Assembly: GCF_010731115.1 (NCBI RefSeq)
Contig: NZ_AP022616.1
Coordinates: 2,666,001-2,730,000 of the forward strand
Direction: 5' to 3'
DNA: 64,000 nt
Origin: Mycolicibacterium phocaicum
GTDB lineage: Bacteria; Actinomycetota; Actinomycetes; Mycobacteriales; Mycobacteriaceae
The position numbers were made by a program, and so were the translations under genes. Shown piece after piece: positions 1,969 to 10,259 of this stretch. The notes under the pieces are model-generated. The model made no database searches and was not told the origin of the DNA. It saw only the letters and a list, made by a program, of their open reading frames with translations. Every line of letters begins with the position of its first letter. The stretch's first letter is position 1.

Positions 1969-2397
1969 CTACGCCCCGAATTTGGCCTTGGCATCGTCTC
2001 TCACCGGCGTGAAGAGGTTGACGAGGTTGCCGTCGGGATCGCGGAACAACAGCGACCGGTTACCCCACGGCATCGTGGTGGGCTCGGTGACGACCTCGTC
2101 CAACCGGCTTCGCAGCCGTTCGTACTCCGCGTCGACGTCATCCACGATGAACTCGATGATGGTGCTCCGGTTGGCCGCCGGCTCGGCGGAACCCGCCCCG
2201 AACAAGGGCACGGTCTTGTCGCTGCCGATCGCCAAAGTGCCCACCGGCGTGGGGATCTCCGCGAACAGTTCATTGGCCCAGACCGCCTCGGCCCCGGTCA
2301 CCAATTCATAGAAGCCGACCAGGCTCGGGACGTCGGCGGTGATGATGCGGGTGGAAACAAGCTTCATGCTGCGCACGATATCGGCGACCACCGACAT
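1969..2397 (-). CDS. VOC-superfamily (glyoxalase/bleomycin-resistance-like) protein
   Basis: Up to 142 aa. Two candidate starts exist: ATG 2397 and ATG 2367 (protein MKLVSTRIITADVPSLVGFY). The second matches where VOC domains normally begin and is my preference. A single VOC module is seen: an N-terminal strand, GFYELVTG, EFIVDDVDAEYERL, and a C-terminal FRDPDGNLVNLF with the usual DPDGN turn. Such proteins bind metals or sequester or isomerise small molecules; the specific role is unknown. The IS110 element begins shortly upstream, so the native promoter may be displaced. Confidence 0.8.
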   Translation of the reverse strand: MSVVADIVRSMKLVSTRIITADVPSLVGFYELVTGAEAVWANELFAEIPTPVGTLAIGSDKTVPLFGAGSAEPAANRSTIIEFIVDDVDAEYERLRSRLDEVVTEPTTMPWGNRSLLFRDPDGNLVNLFTPVRDDAKAKFGA

Positions 2398-2663
2398 TGA
2401 TTGTGTTCAACCCGTTCGGGCGAGGATGACCTTGCTCGTTCGCCGCTGGTGATGACCCTCCCACCGACTGACGCCCTGCTGGGTTGTCTTCGACTTGATC
2501 TGTCTCACCAGCGACGCGCGAGCAAGCGTTGCCCCGAGAGCCCAGCGGGGCGGACATGACCTAATCAGGAGCCTGGCCGTTCCTCATCAATGTCTTGTCT
2601 GCCCGCCCCGCAGGGTTGTCACCCACCCGCACGGTTCATTACTACGGAGAGGACACCACCATC
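2398..2663 (+). other. Non-coding 5' segment of the first IS110-family element (possible bridge-RNA region)
   Basis: No credible gene lies in these 266 bases. They sit between the VOC gene and the transposase start and contain GC-rich dyads such as CCCCGAGAGCCCAGCGGGGC near 2531-2550. IS110-type elements are known to carry a non-coding left end that is transcribed into a target-specifying bridge RNA. By position this segment would hold it. The exact insertion end cannot be set from the sequence, because IS110 elements lack ordinary terminal inverted repeats. Confidence 0.4.
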
Positions 2664-3900
2664 GTGACATCCCCACGCCGAGTCGTCATCGGCGCCGACA
2701 CCCATCTGGACACCATCCACGTCGCCGCCATCACCGACACCGGCCAACCGCTCGGCGACGCCGAATTCCGCACCAACCCCACCGGCTACTGGGCCGCGAT
2801 CTGCTGGGCCCGCAGCTTTGGTGACATCGTGACCGCAGGAGTCGAGGGCACCAGCAGCTACGGCGCCGGACTCACACAAGCATTGCAGGCCAACGCTATT
2901 CACGTCGTTGAAGTCAACCGACCCGACCGGGCAGCCAGGCGCAGGCAAGGAAAATCCGACCCGCTCGATGCCTACAGTGCCGCCCGCGCCGCGCTGGCCA
3001 GCAACAGCCCAGCCGTCCCCAAAGACCCCACACCAATGCACTCAAAGCCCTGCTGACCGCCCGTCGCGGCGCCGTCAAAGCCCGCACCGCAGCCATCCAG
3101 CAGATCAAGGACCTCCTCGTCACCGCTCCCGCCGAGATACGCGAGCGCTACCGCGGCTACACCACCACGCTGACGCTCGTGGCCGCGCTGTCCAGATGCC
3201 GACCCGCTACACACAACGATCCCGTCACGGTCTCAGTACTGACGGCCTGCAAAACACTGGCCCGCCGCGTCACCTTCCTGCAAGATCAGGCCGACGAAAT
3301 CACTGCTGAGCTCGACACCCTCACTGCTGCATTCAATCCTGCACTCCGGGCCGCCTACGGCGTCGGCCCGGACACCGCCGCTCAACTGATCATCACCGCC
3401 GGCACCAACCCCCAACGGCTCCGCAGCGAAGCCTCCTTTGCGATGCTCACCGGTGTCGCTCCCATCCCGGCCTCGTCCGGGAAAACCAGCCGCCACCGAC
3501 TCTCCCGCGGCGGCGACCGCGCCGCCAACAACGCCCTGTACCGCATCGCCCTGGTCCGCATGGCCCACGACCAACGCACCCGCGACTACGTCACCCGCCA
3601 GACCGCCGCCGGCCGGTCCAAAAAAGAGATCCTGCGGATGCTCAAACGCGCTATCGCCCGCGAGATGTTCAAACACCTCACCGCACCCAGCCCGATCGAC
3701 GACTACAGCGACCTCCGCCCGGCTCGTCGAGCCACAAACATCACTCTCACCGCCGTCGCCGACCACTTCGGCGTATGGCCCAACGACATCTCCCGCCTCG
3801 AACGCGGCCTCAAACGCGACGACACCCTCGCCGCTACCTACCGCCAATGGTTAAACACCCAGCTCAACCACGCCGCTTGACTATTAACAGAAATAGGAGC
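2450..3900 (+). mobile_element. IS110-family insertion sequence no. 1 (ends approximate)
   Basis: The element is inferred from the frameshifted DEDD transposase with non-coding flanks. It separates the VOC gene from a broken gene fragment and marks the left border of the accessory island that runs to ychF. No terminal repeats or target duplication can be seen, as expected for the family, so the ends are estimates only. Confidence 0.6.
2664..3880 (+). pseudogene. IS110-family transposase, frameshifted
   Basis: Part one runs from GTG 2664 to TGA 3056; part two is in another frame and ends at 3880. Joined with one extra base near 3020-3031, they give a normal IS110 transposase of about 405 aa. 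The N-terminal RuvC-like DEDD nuclease shows IGADTHLD, an EGTSSYG segment and KSDPLDAYSAA. The C-terminal Tnp2 part shows MLTGVAPIPASSGKT with the expected serine. The break lies beside the C run in GTCCCCAAAGACCCC. IS110 transposases normally need no frameshift, so this copy is either inactive or contains a sequencing indel. Confidence 0.85.
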
Positions 3901-3980
3901 ATCAAGCTCGCCTCGTCGAGCGCTTCCCGCGGTCGCCCGCCAAGCGCATGATTGATCCACAGAGGGAGGGGAGTGCCGCG

Positions 3981-4246
3981 GTGCCGAACCAATGGTCGGG
4001 AGTGACGATCGACTGTGTCGACCCGGTCCGGATGTCGACGTTCTGGGGACACCTTCTCGGCATCGAGCCCTCATACGAGCACGGCGACGACCCGGGCTGG
4101 GCGCCCTGGTGGTCTCCCACGACGTGCTGGTCCACTCGATGGGCCAGGGTTGGGGCTTCGCGTCGCCGCTCGACATCGCTCGCCGCGTCCGCGAGGGCAC
4201 CATGCCGCCGCCGCCAACCTGGATGCGCCGCCGTATCGGCGGTTAG
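3981..4246 (+). pseudogene. Broken gene remnant: VOC N-terminus running out of frame into an unidentified C-terminus
   Basis: From GTG 3981 the frame encodes about 40 residues of a VOC domain (VTIDCVDPVRMSTFWGHLLG, then DDPGW). Near 4098 the plausible coding frame switches by one register to a segment containing VVSHDVLVHSMGQGWGF and ending MRRRIGG at 4246. I do not recognise the second half. It may be the tail of another gene joined by deletion, or a decayed VOC gene. The remaining 160 bases to the next start are AT-richer and contain no gene. Confidence 0.5.
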
Positions 4247-4407
4247 AAAACCTGTTCGGCCGCTCACCGTCCCGGCGGTCGCCAGCCCGGCTCGCCGATG
4301 CGCGTTTTCACATTGCAGATATAGCAGCTACGCGCGAAACGTGTGCAATACTAAAGTCGCGTCCAGTTCGATCCACGCTCCCGGACGCGGATACAGGAGA
4401 CGCCTTC

Positions 4408-5103
4408 ATGGTTCCGAGTTCCCCCACCAATGCTCTCGGCCCGCACGCGAAAACAGTCCGTGACGCGCTGGTCGAGGTCATACGGTCTCGACATAATCGC
4501 TTCGCAGACGCTCATCAAGTCGCGGGCACTCGATACTCGATGGCCTTCGGAAGTCAGTGGCGTGACCTGCTGGACGACACCAATGATGCGCTGACGGGGC
4601 GCGGCTTCCAGTCGCAGAAGCTCACTCCGGCTGGCTACAAGATCCCGGTGGTCAACGATTGCCTGGTGTACGTGTGGCGGGTCCCCGGCTCTGCGGATGC
4701 GGTCAGCTTCTTCGCTTCGAGTCCGACGCGGAAGAATGGCTTCTCCGCTTCTCCCCCGCCGCCGATGTTGTTCGATCCCGTCCTGGTGGACGAGGGCCGG
4801 GCTGACGACGACGATCCTCCGGGCGGCGAACTCGGTCACACGTTGCGGGCAGCAGGCGACAAGATGCCGGTGGTGCTGGTGATGGTTGAATCGTCGCCGT
4901 GGCAGTTGCAGTCGATAAGTTGGGGCGTCGCCGTTCTGGACGAAGCCACCGGCAAGGTCGAAGTTCGTGGGCTCGAGTCGATCTGGGAGCCCACCTCGGA
5001 CACCGATCGCGATACGTCGAGTGCGGACTCGTTCGACAGCGGCACGCCCGAGGGTCCCTCGGTCGAGCCGCGGCCGCAGGAGCGCCCGAGCACGGATGAC
5101 TGA
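4408..5103 (+). CDS. Orphan 231-aa protein, first gene of an ImmA/restriction island
   Basis: The ATG at 4408 is preceded at 7 bases by CAGGAGA; longer upstream readings of the frame run through the gene remnant and are rejected. No family is recognised. The protein is soluble, with no signal or membrane segment. It has a helical N-terminus (about 1-65), a mixed core with VVNDCLVYVWRVPGSADAVS, a loop of four prolines near residue 113, a beta-rich segment, and an acidic Ser/Thr/Glu/Pro-rich tail. The stop overlaps the next gene's start by 8 bases, so it is translationally coupled to the ImmA-type protein. It could be that protease's substrate or partner, or an independent effector. Confidence 0.75.
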   Translation: MVPSSPTNALGPHAKTVRDALVEVIRSRHNRFADAHQVAGTRYSMAFGSQWRDLLDDTNDALTGRGFQSQKLTPAGYKIPVVNDCLVYVWRVPGSADAVSFFASSPTRKNGFSASPPPPMLFDPVLVDEGRADDDDPPGGELGHTLRAAGDKMPVVLVMVESSPWQLQSISWGVAVLDEATGKVEVRGLESIWEPTSDTDRDTSSADSFDSGTPEGPSVEPRPQERPSTDD

Positions 5104-6217
5104 TGATCCGCCAAGCTTGTTCGACTGGCCCGAGGCCGGTCAAACGCATGGTCGATTCGACCCAGCGCGGCTGACCCAGGCCCGTGTGCGCCTTGCGATA
5201 AGCAAGACGGACCTCGCCGCAGAAGTGGGCGTTTCGCCTGCCGCGATCGGCCAGTACGAGGCGGGCGTTAACTCGCCGCGTCCTGACGTTATCGATCGAA
5301 TGGCGAAGGCCTTGAGGGTGCGACCGGGGTTCTTCGGGGTGGGCCGCCCTCTCGCCCGTATGGATACCGTCCATGCGCATTTTCGGAGCTTGAGATCCGC
5401 TCGCGCGAGCGACCGTCAACGAGCAGTCGCGACGGCAACACTGATGTGGGAACTGACCTTCGCGCTTGAGAGGTACGTCAAGCTGCCGGTACCGAACCTA
5501 CCGCAAATTGAGCCTGGCACCGCGCCTGCGGACGCCGCTGCGATGCTGCGCAGGCACTGGAACCTCCCCGATGGGCCGGTGAAGCACTTGGTAGCCACCG
5601 TGGAATCTCACGGCATCGTGGTAGCAGTGCGTCCGCTAGGCGAGATCGATGCGGTCGACGCCTTCTCGGTAGTGATCGTGGACCGTCCTATCATCATCAC
5701 AACGCCCCGGCGCAGCGAGAACGTCTTCGGACATCGATTTTCGATCGCTCACGAGGTCGGCCACTTGCTCCTTCACGGAGACTCCGGCGAGTCGAGCCAG
5801 GCGGTGGAGCGTGAGGCAGACGAGTTTGCTGCGGCATTTCTAACCCCTGCCGCGTCTATGGACGCGGTACTGCCCGAGAGGCTCGATCTACCGGCCCTGC
5901 ATCGACTGGGTCGAACGTGGGGTGTTTCGCCAAAGTCGTTGGTCCGTCGGATGGTGGAGCGGCATCGCACGACTGATTCGTCCGCACGGCGGGCCTACCA
6001 ACGATTGGCCATGACGTACGACCCGTCGGCGGACCCCACCAGCGCGTACCCCGGTGAGGTAGCAACGCTTCTGCGGAAGGGCGTCGAGCTGGCTGGTCAG
6101 CACGGCGCGGGCGTACCCGTTCTCGCGGATGTCCTCAAGATCAGCCCTGGGCAGCTGCGCGACCTCCTGGGAGAGGAAGATCAGCGCCCGGTTCTGCGCC
6201 TCGTCAAAGACGAGTGA
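5096..6217 (+). CDS. XRE-family HTH plus ImmA/IrrE-type metallopeptidase
   Basis: A 373-aa protein; the ATG at 5096 lies inside the end of the preceding gene. Residues ~24-80 form an XRE/Cro helix-turn-helix (LAAEVGVSPAAIGQYEAG). Residues ~160-260 form the DUF955/ImmA zinc peptidase with HEVGH at 219-223, and a downstream EREADEFAAAFLTP supplies the third ligand. Known relatives (ImmA of ICEBs1, IrrE) cleave or control repressors, and XRE-ImmA fusions often sit in mobile and defence islands. Here the protein probably regulates or acts with the orphan gene before it and the restriction enzyme 112 bp downstream. Confidence 0.88.
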   Translation: MTDDPPSLFDWPEAGQTHGRFDPARLTQARVRLAISKTDLAAEVGVSPAAIGQYEAGVNSPRPDVIDRMAKALRVRPGFFGVGRPLARMDTVHAHFRSLRSARASDRQRAVATATLMWELTFALERYVKLPVPNLPQIEPGTAPADAAAMLRRHWNLPDGPVKHLVATVESHGIVVAVRPLGEIDAVDAFSVVIVDRPIIITTPRRSENVFGHRFSIAHEVGHLLLHGDSGESSQAVEREADEFAAAFLTPAASMDAVLPERLDLPALHRLGRTWGVSPKSLVRRMVERHRTTDSSARRAYQRLAMTYDPSADPTSAYPGEVATLLRKGVELAGQHGAGVPVLADVLKISPGQLRDLLGEEDQRPVLRLVKDE

Positions 6218-6329
6218 CGCTCGGGAGCGGTCGCCGTGTCCCCTCGGGTGACGTCAGTGGACGGCTTTACAGTGCCTGTCATGGCCTCGACACCATCGAA
6301 AGCGTTCGCGCCGACTCAGGGGCCGGGCC

Positions 6330-9155
6330 GTGCAGCCTGAGACGCTCCAGCAGGATCTCGCCGAGTTCATCGCGTACCGGCATAACCTCCTCAAGGGTGA
6401 CGAGAAGGGCGAGGCTCAGGTCTTCCTCGACCGACTGTTCAAAGCGTTCGGAAACGGCGGCGTCCGAGAGGCCGGGGCAACCCTGGAGGCACGCGTTCGG
6501 AAGGCCGAGACCAAGGGCACCTCATTCGCCGATCTGCTCTGGGAGTCGCGCTGCATCATCGAGATGAAGAAGGCCGGGACCGACCTCTCGAAGCACTTCC
6601 GACAGGCCTTCCAGTATTGGATCCAGGTGGTGCCCCACCGCCCGAACTACGTGGTGCTCTGCAACTTTGACGAGTTCTGGGTCTACGATTTCGACCTCCA
6701 ACTCGACGCTCCAATGGACGTACTGAAGCTCGATGATCTGGTCAACCGGAGAGAAGTGCTCGCGTTCCTCTTGCCGGAGCCCGAGACACCGCTATTCGGC
6801 AACGACCTCGTTCAGGTCACGCGCGAGGCGGCGGCGCAAGTGTCCAGCGTGTTTCGCTCGATGAAGGATCGCGGGGTCCCTCGGCTGGATGCTCAGCACT
6901 TCGTTCTCCAGTCGGTCGTGGCGATGTTCGCCGAAGACATCGGCCTGCTGCCCGAGAAGTTCTTCACCCGCGTTGTCGAAGAGGCCAAATCTGGCCGCGA
7001 CGCCTACGACTTGCTCGGCTCACTGTTCCGAGAGATGAACACGCCCGGTCGGACGAAGGGTGGCCAGTTCGTCGGGACGCCTTACTTCAACGGCGGCATC
7101 TTCGAGAACATCACGCCGATTGAGATGAACCGAGACGAGCTAAATGCCATTCGGTGGGCGTGCACAACGAACTGGGCTGCCGTCCGCCCCGAGATCTTCG
7201 GCACTCTGTTCGAGACCTCGATGGACAAGGACGAACGTCACGCCTACGGCGCTCATTTCACGTCTCAGGCCGACATCGCCCGAGTGGTGATCCCCTGCAT
7301 CGTGGACCCCTGGATGGAGCGAATCGAAGCCGCCAAGACGATCGGCGACCTGGAGCAGATTCAGCTAGCAATGGCCAGCTACCGAGTGCTCGATCCGGCG
7401 TGCGGGTCGGGCAACTTCTTGTACGTGGCCTATCGGGAGATGCGCCGCCTTGAGGTCGAGGTCAAGAATCGCATCGCTGCTCGCCGCCGCACCAAGTCCG
7501 GCCAGGCGACGATCTCCTACGTGACGCCCGATCACTTCATGGGAATCGACACCAACGCCTTCGCCGTCGAGGTGGCAAAGGTGACCATGATGATGGCAAA
7601 GAAGCTGGCTGCCGACGAGCTGGAGGAGTACGTCGACGCACTCCCCCTGGACAACCTCGACGAGTCGATTCGCTGCCGCGACGCTCTCTTCTCGGAGTGG
7701 CCCAGCGCGGACGTGCTCATCGGCAACCCGCCCTATCTGGGTCGGCGGAAGATGGCAGCCGAACTCGGTGCCGATTACGTATCAGACCTTGACGGGAAGT
7801 ATCCGAACCCCGGCGTGAGTGACTTCGTCACCTACTGGTTTCCCCTGGCGCACAAGGCACTACCCCAGGGCGGCCGAGCGGGGTTTGTCGCTACGCAGGC
7901 GGTACGCGACGGCGACTCGCGGAAGGCGTCACTCGATTACGTCGTCAAGAACGATGGGGTGATCTTCGAAGCCGTCTCGGTCACCCCGTGGTCGGGTGAC
8001 GCCGTGGTTCACGTGTCCATCGTCAACTGGGTGAAGGGCGCGAACCACGCACCCGCGAAGAAGGTCCTTTGGCTGAACAATGGGCAACTCCGACTCGAAG
8101 TCGAAGACATCGCCGCCAGCCTGAGGCCGGTCACCGACGTCGGGACTGCCGCCTCGCTGCCCCAAAACAAGGCCCCGAAGCGGATCTTCCAAGGCCAGAC
8201 GACGGGAAAAATCGATGCCTTCCGTTTGACCGGAGGCGAGGCCGCCGACCTTGGCAAGACAGACCCCGGTTCGGCGGCGTTCATTCACCCAGTCCTCGGT
8301 GGGAAGGTGCTGCTCCACTCCCTCGGACCCCAGAACTTCATCATCGACCTCCCCCACGACGACGCGCTGGACGTCAAGGTCGCTGCTCCAGGTGCCCTGG
8401 CGAGGCTGCGCAAGCTGGTGCTGCCAGACCGGGAAGCGGCTGCCGAGAAGGAGGCCACCGCGAATGCCGCGATCCTCAAACGCAATTCGAAAGCACAGGT
8501 GCGTTGGCACAACAAGAACTTCCTGAACAAGTGGTGGCAGCATTCGTATCGGCGCGACGACATGATCGAGGCGTTCGCTCCGTTGCAGCGCTACATCGCG
8601 ACGTCTCGGGTGGCGGCAGAGCAGCGGGTCTCCGTCTTCCAATTCGTGGACACGTCGATCCGACCCGACGATTCGATGACCGTCATTGCCTTCGATGACG
8701 ACTACACCCTCGGCGTCGTGTCGTCGGCGCTTCATAGAGCGTGGTTCGAGGAGCGGTGCTCCAAATTGAAGTCCGACCTTCGCTACACGTCGACCACGGT
8801 ATGGGATTCGTTTCCGTGGCCGACCTCACCAGGAGAGGCCGTGGCTGAGGTCGCGCAAGCGATGGCCGCCATCATCGACTACCGCGAAGCGAAGCTCGCC
8901 AAGGGCATCACGCTGGGAGAGCAGTACGACGCGCTGCGTACCCCTGGGAAGTCGGAACTGCGGGCGCTACACGACGTTCTCGATGCCGCCGTTGTCCGCG
9001 CGTACGGGTTCAATCCAGAGGAAGACCTGCTGGCGCAACTGCTGGCCCTGAACCTGGCCGCCGCGTCTGATCCCGAGGCCGCCATCGCACCGGGTGGCGG
9101 CGGGCGGCCCGAGGCCTACACCACCACCTACCGACTCACGGCAGCCGCGCCGTGA
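6330..9155 (+). CDS. MmeI-like single-chain restriction endonuclease/adenine-N6 methyltransferase (Type IIG/IIL-like)
   Basis: 941 aa from GTG 6330. Domains in order: an N-terminal PD-(D/E)XK nuclease with D68-X9-E78-X-K80, the same spacing as the MmeI catalytic motif; a helical connector (~150-340); a gamma-class N6-adenine methyltransferase with DPACGSGNF at 355-363 and NPPY at 466-469; then a target-recognition region (~600-850) and a helical C-terminus. Such enzymes cut a fixed distance from an asymmetric site and protect by hemimethylation, so no separate methylase is needed. The TRD sequence does not reveal the specificity. It is the last gene of the island block and almost touches ychF tail to tail. 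Confidence 0.9.
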   Translation: MQPETLQQDLAEFIAYRHNLLKGDEKGEAQVFLDRLFKAFGNGGVREAGATLEARVRKAETKGTSFADLLWESRCIIEMKKAGTDLSKHFRQAFQYWIQVVPHRPNYVVLCNFDEFWVYDFDLQLDAPMDVLKLDDLVNRREVLAFLLPEPETPLFGNDLVQVTREAAAQVSSVFRSMKDRGVPRLDAQHFVLQSVVAMFAEDIGLLPEKFFTRVVEEAKSGRDAYDLLGSLFREMNTPGRTKGGQFVGTPYFNGGIFENITPIEMNRDELNAIRWACTTNWAAVRPEIFGTLFETSMDKDERHAYGAHFTSQADIARVVIPCIVDPWMERIEAAKTIGDLEQIQLAMASYRVLDPACGSGNFLYVAYREMRRLEVEVKNRIAARRRTKSGQATISYVTPDHFMGIDTNAFAVEVAKVTMMMAKKLAADELEEYVDALPLDNLDESIRCRDALFSEWPSADVLIGNPPYLGRRKMAAELGADYVSDLDGKYPNPGVSDFVTYWFPLAHKALPQGGRAGFVATQAVRDGDSRKASLDYVVKNDGVIFEAVSVTPWSGDAVVHVSIVNWVKGANHAPAKKVLWLNNGQLRLEVEDIAASLRPVTDVGTAASLPQNKAPKRIFQGQTTGKIDAFRLTGGEAADLGKTDPGSAAFIHPVLGGKVLLHSLGPQNFIIDLPHDDALDVKVAAPGALARLRKLVLPDREAAAEKEATANAAILKRNSKAQVRWHNKNFLNKWWQHSYRRDDMIEAFAPLQRYIATSRVAAEQRVSVFQFVDTSIRPDDSMTVIAFDDDYTLGVVSSALHRAWFEERCSKLKSDLRYTSTTVWDSFPWPTSPGEAVAEVAQAMAAIIDYREAKLAKGITLGEQYDALRTPGKSELRALHDVLDAAVVRAYGFNPEEDLLAQLLALNLAAASDPEAAIAPGGGGRPEAYTTTYRLTAAAP

Positions 9156-9167
9156 AGGACCGACCGG

Positions 9168-10259
9168 TCACGACTTTGACTTAGATGGTTGTCCGTGGCG
9201 AAATTCGACCACGTCACCGTCGACCATGACGTAGTCCTTGCCTTCCATCCGGACCTTGCCGGCGGCTTTGGCGGCCGCCATGGAGCCGGCTTCGACCAGG
9301 TCGTCGAAGGCGACGATCTCGGCCTTGATGAAGCCCTTCTCGAAGTCCGTGTGAATAACCCCCGCTGCGCGAGGTGCGGTGTCGCCCTGGTGGATGGTCC
9401 ACGCCCGCGATTCCTTGGGTCCCGCGGTCAGGTAGGTCTGCAGCTTCAGCGTCCGGAAACCGGCGCGCGCCAACGCATCCAGGCCGCGCTCGGTCTGGCC
9501 GATGGACTCCAGCAGCTCGGCGGCGGACTCGTCGTCGAGCTCCAGCAACTCGGCCTCGATCTTGGCGTCCAGGAACACGGCCTCGGCCGGGGCGACCATC
9601 GCGGTCAGCTCGGCCTTGCGGGCCTCGTCGGTCAGCACCGACTCGTCGGCGTTGAAGACGTACAGGAACGGCTTGACCGTCATCAGGTTGAGCTCACGCA
9701 GGGCAGACCAGTCCTTGCCGGTGGAGAACAGGGTCTTGCCCTCGTCGAACACCGCCTGGGCCGCCGCCACGGCCTCGACGATCGGCTTGCGGTCCTTGTT
9801 GGTCCGGGCTTCCTTCTCGAGCCGCGGCAGCGCCTTCTCGAGCGTCTGCATGTCGGCGAGGATCAGCTCGGTCTCGATGACCTCGATGTCGGACTTGGGG
9901 TCGACGCGGCCGTCGACGTGGACGACGTCGTCGTCGGCGAAGGCGCGCACCACCTGACAGATGGCGTCGGCCTCGCGGATGTTGGCCAGGAACTTGTTGC
10001 CGAGGCCCGCGCCCTCGGACGCGCCCTTGACGATGCCGGCGATGTCCACGAACGTTACGGGCGCCGGGACGGTCTTCTCGGAACCGAAGATCTCGGCGAG
10101 CTTGTCGAGCCGCGGGTCGGGCAGCGGGACGACACCCTCGTTGGGTTCGATCGTTGCGAACGGATAATTAGCCGCGAGCACGTCATTACGTGTCAACGCG
10201 TTGAACAACGTCGACTTCCCGACGTTCGGCAGACCGACGATTCCCAGGTTCAGACCCAC
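9168..10259 (-). CDS. ychF: Redox-regulated ATPase YchF (Obg-like GTPase superfamily)
   Basis: 363 aa from GTG 10259. The G1 motif [12 protein letters not shown] comes near the N-terminus, then [12 protein letters not shown] (G3). A helical insert and a C-terminal TGS domain ([13 protein letters not shown] onward) follow. YchF hydrolyses ATP in preference to GTP and binds ribosomes. It marks the start of the stretch collinear with M. tuberculosis Rv1112-Rv1076. It is convergent with the restriction enzyme, with only 12 bp between stops, so the island ends exactly at this conserved gene. Confidence 0.95.

Follow-up and report, generated by a model that had tools for sequence, protein, structure and literature searches.

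A candidate RosmerTA-type toxin-antitoxin module with an unlisted partner family beside ychF in Mycolicibacterium phocaicum

The T231-RmrA gene pair

In a 64,000-nucleotide stretch of the Mycolicibacterium phocaicum genome (contig NZ_AP022616.1, positions 2,666,001 to 2,730,000; hereafter 'the window'), we identified two overlapping genes, coding for a protein of 231 amino acids (aa), referred to as T231, and for a 373-aa protein of the RmrA family, which probably form a two-gene toxin-antitoxin module of the RosmerTA type in actinobacteria, with a toxin family unlisted in libraries. The mechanism we infer from the protein families, the structure of the genes and their motifs; what was observed is that T231 and RmrA are strictly paired with T231 first, that their reading frames overlap, that RmrA belongs to its family and has an intact HExxH motif, and that the distribution is patchy. 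RosmerTA was reportedly first described by Millman et al. in 2022.

T231 would act as the toxin, and RmrA would bind it, perhaps at a conserved FDxG tail, and hold it silent, while the XRE domain of RmrA would repress the promoter of the pair. Phage infection or DNA damage would free T231 and lead to growth arrest. The target would be replication: by analogy with RipA, the pneumococcal Rosmer toxin, a Leu-Phe loop of T231 would dock in the pocket of the DnaN sliding clamp, a step that we put forward tentatively, as a possibility. The features of the locus, taken from the open reading frame (ORF) list of the window and from the analyses given in brackets, are:

4408..5103, + strand: T231, 231-aa partner and proposed RosmerTA toxin of an unlisted family (ORF, search for relatives, pairing with RmrA)
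4768..4773, + strand: conserved Leu121-Phe122 of T231 where a poorly ordered loop begins, a proposed clamp-binding motif, degenerate here (alignment and fold model; putative function)
5032..5043, + strand: conserved F209-D210-x-G212 of T231 in the disordered C-terminal tail, a proposed RmrA contact (alignment; predicted local distance difference test, pLDDT, <50; putative function)
5096..6217, + strand: RmrA, XRE helix-turn-helix (HTH) plus ImmA/IrrE (M78) metallopeptidase, 373 aa (PADLOC, Pfam)
5096..5103, + strand: 8-base overlap ATGACTGA, holding the RmrA start and the T231 stop (sequence)
6330..9155, + strand: MmeI-like Type IIG restriction enzyme-methyltransferase, 941 aa, judged a separate cassette (PADLOC, Pfam, PDB 5hr4, motifs)

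An earlier note on this DNA had described three same-strand genes with an 8-base overlap and a 112-bp gap, lying between transposase debris and ychF; its coordinates proved exact. No sigma-70-like promoter was found at 3900-9250, which is weak evidence in mycobacteria.

RmrA and its strict pairing with T231

By its profile matches, the 373-aa XRE-ImmA protein is RmrA, a member of the RosmerTA antitoxin family. Its top PADLOC matches were 14 RmrA profiles (best PDLC03955, E 1.5e-78, residues 19-369), followed by capP (7.4e-14) and capH (1.7e-5). Pfam domains HTH_3 and Peptidase_M78 were identified, the zinc-site HExxH is intact (HEVGH, residues 219-223) and is kept in 30/30 loci, and the protein matched the spr1629 (RipB) family NF052239 of NCBIfam at E 1.9e-25, under the family cut-off. 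RmrA has been described as the antitoxin of RosmerTA anti-phage systems, in which diverse toxins are paired with a protease-bearing antitoxin, and members of the family were tested as anti-phage antitoxins (PMC10440598). The XRE-ImmA domains and the defence link of the earlier note were thus borne out. Its proposal of a protease-gated effector was not, as the same source treats RmrA as an antitoxin and not as a protease activating an effector (PMC10440598). Five M78 (ImmA/IrrE) matches exist in the whole source genome, the RmrA of the window among them.

An RmrA gene directly follows T231 in 30/30 genome loci from 29 genomes; two of these loci (L025 and L031) are from one strain, L008 is from a strain near-identical to that of the window, and L036 carries a broken T231. 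The reading frames overlap in all 29 unbroken pairs, by 8 bases in 24 and by 11 bases in five. Since order and overlap are the same in 29/29 unbroken loci, 28 of which encode a T231 only 43-63% identical to that of the window, the pairing is far beyond chance. RmrA is more conserved across the loci (69-81% identity, versus 43-63% for T231), which counts against the toxin-antitoxin reading. In the reverse direction, RmrA was found at E<=1e-70 in 15/394 genomes of the class, and 15/15 (the window included) carry a T231-superfamily gene upstream, which in eight genomes is of the Streptomyces type. The coupling of the 231-aa protein to the XRE-ImmA gene, as noted earlier from a single locus, therefore held in both searches.

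T231 without RmrA was seen in 0 of the 45 loci (30 forward and 15 reverse). In Paenarthrobacter (L036:8001-8339) T231 is broken and RmrA open, although an assembly error is possible there. A broken T231 beside an open RmrA, together with no T231 alone, is an asymmetry like that of toxin-antitoxin pairs, as would be expected if the partner were the costly half.

Among plasmids, 12 of the 40 listed RmrA matches (264 records in all) were examined, and a 13th (Arthrobacter sp. Hiyo8, label H67) was found via the helicase PDC-S53 discussed below. A T231-type gene lies upstream of RmrA in 11 of the 12 regions; the exception, L048 (RmrA 33% identical), has an unrelated partner, and in Hiyo8 (RmrA 34% identical) the partner resembles that of L048. 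These two loci (L095:2075-4001 in Hiyo8 and L048:2171-4212) represent a second RmrA subfamily with other unlisted partners, of 265 and 264 aa respectively, 32% identical mutually and with no detectable relation to T231.

The T231 family and its remote members

A search of 5.8 billion database proteins returned 402 relatives of T231 at E<=0.01; among the 120 listed, all with an organism name are actinobacterial. No match at E<=1 was obtained against Pfam, NCBIfam, PADLOC and PHROGs or, by sequence profile, against PDB, in agreement with the earlier note, which had called the protein unrecognised. Literature searches brought up no paper recognisable as a description of the family, for which no name is available as a search term, and Rosmer is absent from the main text of a survey of Actinobacteria defence (PMC10482375).

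Remote partners of RmrA were compared with the close T231 family by profile. The initial grouping of these partners (A4) presupposed relatedness, which was resolved by comparison via intermediates and by reversed controls; the fragments P0245, P0249 and P0250 (A5 rows) were omitted from the alignment (A6). In single comparisons with the close family, L041 reached probability 98.6 (E 1e-15), L043 and L045 90, L047 88 and L046 79 (E 1.5e-6 to 1.6e-5), and the Kocuria/Rhodococcus type gave 99.6. An intermediate profile built from eight partners matched the close family (99.5, E 5e-23), the Streptomyces type (99.7, E 4e-27) and the L044 type (99.7, E 1e-26), and the close family combined with the Kocuria/Rhodococcus type matched the Streptomyces type (96.3, E 1.4e-9). 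Reversed sequences and the L048-type partner, serving as controls, stayed at <=0.3. Profile comparison thus places the remote partners in one putative T231 superfamily, which L042, L044 and the Streptomyces clade join via intermediates alone.

Several results weigh against the toxin-antitoxin assignment or against the unity of the partner family. Singly compared with the close family, L042 and L044 showed no similarity (probability 0.3 and 0.4), and the Streptomyces clade directly reached only 9 (E 0.0036). No RmrT match was found in PADLOC 2.0.0, whose library includes PDLC03942 as one RmrT model, for T231 (at E<=1) or for 10 further partner proteins. T231 may, moreover, be a regulator instead of a toxin.

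Fold and motifs of T231

Both fold models of T231 bear a weak likeness to PD-(D/E)XK nucleases, with no conserved active site; the second model, built on an alignment mixing clades, is not wholly independent of the first. Foldseek returned no match at E<=0.001 for the first model (PDB, BFVD) or for the second (PDB). The Eco15I N-domain and YTH domains, considered as fold matches of the first model, gave partial or poor superpositions and were rejected. A nuclease function was set aside, as no acidic or Lys residues are conserved across the wide family.

Two conserved motifs lie outside the confidently modelled core. The F209-D210-x-G212 tail is nearly invariant in the close family (F209 and G212 in 83/83, D210 in 99%), and in eight remote partners F, D and G are kept in 7/8, 6/8 and 6/8, respectively; we propose that it contacts RmrA. 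The second motif lies in the loop that starts with Leu121-Phe122, where [LMI]-[FW] occurs in 82/82 close members versus 25.6 expected by shuffling. Leu121-Phe122 aligns with Q-A-D-L-F or Q-x-T-L-F in two remote clades, and QxxLF occurs in this loop in 28/28 Streptomyces-type (0.51 expected by shuffling) and 9/12 Kocuria/Rhodococcus-type proteins (0.08 expected). These sequences are close to the clamp-binding consensus QL(S/D)LF and to QADMF of the E. coli DNA polymerase III alpha subunit (PMC11139829). The better-scoring DnaE of the window's genome carries QFDLFG. In 638 background ORFs a stricter clamp pattern has a frequency of 0.0044 per 230 aa; 57/210 members of the close clade match it somewhere in the protein. 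A second match in that clade (QxSIW and similar), examined as a clamp motif, falls mainly on the final predicted strand and was not accepted as such.

The clamp step meets several difficulties. QxxLF was found in the loop of just 2/82 close members and 0/6 remote singletons, and the loop of the window's own T231 reads PPMLF, without Gln. A missing Gln in a clamp motif normally weakens binding. The clades were delimited and the QxxLF pattern picked post hoc from the alignment, and the clade members are non-independent. Leu-Phe could also be structural instead. On the other side, actinobacterial NucS binds DnaN via [E/K]-[L/Y]-[T/R]-L-F, with no Gln (PMC8228993), and suppressor mutations against RipA map to the same DnaN pocket (PMC12795458). 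Because of the QxxLF of the remote clades, NucS and RipA, clamp docking is a reasonable hypothesis for the superfamily; because of the Gln-less PPMLF, it is a weaker one for the T231 of the window.

Genes downstream of the pair

The gene behind RmrA changes between lineages. The PDC-S53 helicase lies 5 bases behind it in five loci from four genomes (L017, L025, L027, L028 and L031; 86-90% identical), where T231, RmrA and S53 form an apparent three-gene operon. A 297-aa gene product with a PDC-S60-like, weakly DUF4062-like N-terminus is encoded 77-81 bases behind RmrA in L009, L016, L021 and L026, with shorter relatives in L018, L022 and L030. A DUF6119 gene follows at 21 bases in two Arthrobacter-type loci, L010 (scanned) and L015:9823-11478 (96% identical), AbiD at 117 bases in one locus, and a type I methylase-specificity fusion is found further downstream in two Nocardia. 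In L074 another gene lies directly behind RmrA (no family scan). A third gene of defence type is thus a recurrent but changing companion of the pair. The earlier note had asked how often such pairs sit beside MmeI-like or other defence genes: defence-type genes directly follow RmrA in several lineages, and an MmeI-like gene does so, outside the window, only in L008.

This linkage, with its close same-strand neighbours, brings in another explanation, by which the pair controls adjacent immune genes much as CapH+CapP do: RmrA would repress the promoter, the pair would sense damage or phage, proteolysis would free transcription of the downstream defence genes, and T231 would be a sensor or co-repressor. 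We regard this as rather unlikely, but the evidence is divided. Precedents exist, since CapH+CapP and CapK+CapS control adjacent immune genes (PMC13373217), and the capP and capH matches of RmrA given above point the same way; the fusion of repressor and protease in RmrA, unlike CapH+CapP, points against it. Counted per locus, at least 11 of the 28 ORFs nearest downstream had a PADLOC match at 1e-9, compared with 4 to 7 of 46 distal ones (Fisher p 0.0025 to 0.026), the range arising as the table leaves unclear whether four single-member rows are one protein. Nearest ORFs were those of >=150 aa; two loci were left out of the 28, L008 as near-identical and L013 because it lacks an ORF of 150-1500 aa within 3.5 kb. 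When collapsed per gene family, however, the excess is not significant (4/21 versus 4 to 7 of 46; p 0.25 to 0.73), and in 11/30 loci no ORF on the same strand follows RmrA within 200 bp.

PDC-S53 itself gives evidence in both directions. In Hiyo8 it stands directly behind the RmrA pair with the unrelated partner, and in Rhodococcus erythropolis pRLCBG43 (L094:3630-3995) a C-terminal remnant of RmrA, ~79% identical to the S53-linked RmrA, lies 5 bases upstream of it; there the module seems to have been lost and the third gene retained. These two cases favour control of the third gene. Yet PDC-S53 had no RmrA within a flank of ~1.5 kb in 5/5 other genomes of the class. Of seven plasmid records with S53, four were examined: one has the RmrA remnant, one the other RmrA pair, and two are without annotated RmrA.

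Distribution and insertion site

T231 is rare. It was found in 1/198 genomes of the genus and in 2/296 genomes of the phylum, namely the window's own and one marginal match (not examined further), and relatives are present on six plasmids; the closest among the matches listed, from Mycolicibacterium chubuense NBB4, has 94% identity. The T231-RmrA distribution is patchy, plasmids included, and the pair is mobile.

A role in the maintenance of mobile elements or in lysogeny-type regulation, with no anti-phage function, would agree with the plasmid-borne copies, with the match of RmrA to phrog_2439, a phage transcriptional regulator family (5e-66), and with its relatives in 23 phage records (25.5-33% identity); XRE-ImmA proteins are known to regulate integrative and conjugative elements and prophages (PMC2701414, PMC10440598). 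No T231 relative was found in viral_contigs (the phages collection was not searched with T231), however, and the anti-phage testing of the RmrA family also speaks against this role, which we hold to be quite improbable.

Upstream of T231 lie two ORFs in different frames (2595-3056 and 3179-3880) that together make up a split transposase; the label 'IS110-type' is that of the earlier note, given without a family scan. A VOC-like fragment, judged by eye, lies beside it near 3948-4150. On the other side ychF occupies 9168-10259 on the - strand, downstream of the MmeI-like gene. The three genes have a G+C content of 0.63-0.64, slightly below the 0.667 of the window. Over 6,760 bases the region shares 99.7% identity with Mycobacterium sp. 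ST-F2 (L008), and this identity ends at window position 4093, ~315 bp ahead of T231.

In 6/10 relatives of the genus (L063, L065, L066, L067, L068 and L070) there is, beyond the end of ychF, a VOC-type gene with a match to window 1969-2397, at ~0.1 kb in L067 and ~7 kb in L068; in the other four it was not found within the stretch examined at ychF. As its distance differs among relatives, the transposase debris and the island occupy a junction that is variable between species. A defence hot-spot beside ychF was considered and rejected: the one long alternative insert that was read (L068) contains PAS/GGDEF-like sensor, methyltransferase-like and pentapeptide-repeat ORFs, as judged by eye with no family scan.

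The MmeI-like enzyme

The 941-aa enzyme matched PADLOC PDLC03599 (1086.6 bits) and PDB 5hr4 (MmeI; E 1.6e-69). Pfam domains MmeI_N, MmeI_hel, MmeI_Mtase and MmeI_TRD scored above cut-off, MmeI_C below it, and the motifs E76-x-K78, DPACGSG (355) and NPPY (466) are present, in line with its earlier identification as a single-chain Type IIG enzyme.

The idea that pair and enzyme are one composite anti-phage system, advanced in the earlier note, has in its favour the shared strand, the 112 bases between the end of RmrA and the start of the enzyme gene, and the preservation of this arrangement in ST-F2. As a conserved system it is largely refuted, and we consider it very improbable: an MmeI-like gene lies behind the pair in 1/30 loci only, that of near-identical ST-F2, the sole place where the three-gene arrangement was found again. 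In L012 a 26%-identical MmeI-like relative lies ~4.5 kb from the pair. Within the genus the enzyme was matched at E<=1e-50 in 8/198 genomes, the window's included, and two others (G381 and G450) carry a relative 91-92% identical to it; T231 and RmrA are both absent from the 14.4 kb around each. DNA homology with G381 and G450 begins at window positions 6333 and 6252, respectively, just ahead of the enzyme gene, and in G450 (L060:4162-7358) the enzyme relative adjoins GajA/GajB (Gabija). We judge from the sequences that the MmeI-like enzyme is probably a restriction cassette in its own right, which came to lie next to the pair.

Implications

The earlier view of an undescribed system stands for the T231 partner family, which is unlisted, and not for the RmrA half, which belongs to a known anti-phage family and makes the pair RosmerTA-type. 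To RosmerTA, whose toxins are described as diverse and often lack known relatives, this would add a partner family spread across actinobacteria and a target that can be put to experiment. Should T231 prove to bind DnaN, it would share the sliding clamp as its target with another Rosmer toxin, RipA; griselimycin, an antibiotic, binds this clamp as well (PMC10421592). Because defence-type genes follow the pair in several lineages, the pair could serve as a marker in the search for immune genes of actinobacteria.

A bolder picture, improbable in our opinion, unites these threads: T231 would be a toxin that binds the clamp and resembles restriction endonucleases but has no catalytic activity, and T231-RmrA would be a portable module with two effects: it would halt replication by filling the DnaN pocket, and it would drive expression of whichever defence gene lies downstream (PDC-S53, DUF4062-like, DUF6119, AbiD or, here by coincidence, MmeI-like).

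Comparison with known systems

The enzyme shares domain order and motifs with MmeI (PDB 5hr4) and differs in its MmeI_C domain, which remains below cut-off. With NucS/EndoMS of actinobacteria (PMC8228993), T231 would have in common a nuclease-type fold with a putative Leu-Phe clamp motif, but is without conserved catalytic residues; the likeness is drawn without sequence comparison. CapH+CapP likewise combine an HTH repressor and an ImmA-type protease beside immune genes (PMC13373217). These are separate genes there, whereas here both functions are fused in one 373-aa protein coupled to T231; the scores of the RmrA profiles far exceed those of capP/capH, and the gene behind the pair varies.

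RipAB (Spr1630-Spr1629) of Streptococcus pneumoniae similarly has an XRE-ImmA antitoxin, and its toxin RipA reportedly acts on the DnaN pocket (PMC12795458), which we propose as the target of T231 too; this likeness is drawn from the antitoxin match and the reported RipA target, the RipA sequence not having been compared with T231.

RosmerTA is closest. It features an XRE HTH fused to an ImmA/M78 protease, an adjacent partner gene and toxins said to be diverse (PMC10440598), and the window pair shows both the RmrA profile match and a conserved adjacent, overlapping partner (30/30 and 15/15). The Kita toxin of RosmerTA is reported to be membrane-acting; the T231 model is without an apparent membrane segment (no membrane prediction was run). 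As T231 matches no RmrT profile in PADLOC 2.0.0, a criterion that is not strictly defining given the diversity of the toxins, the pair is filed not under a listed RmrT but as a variant of RosmerTA.

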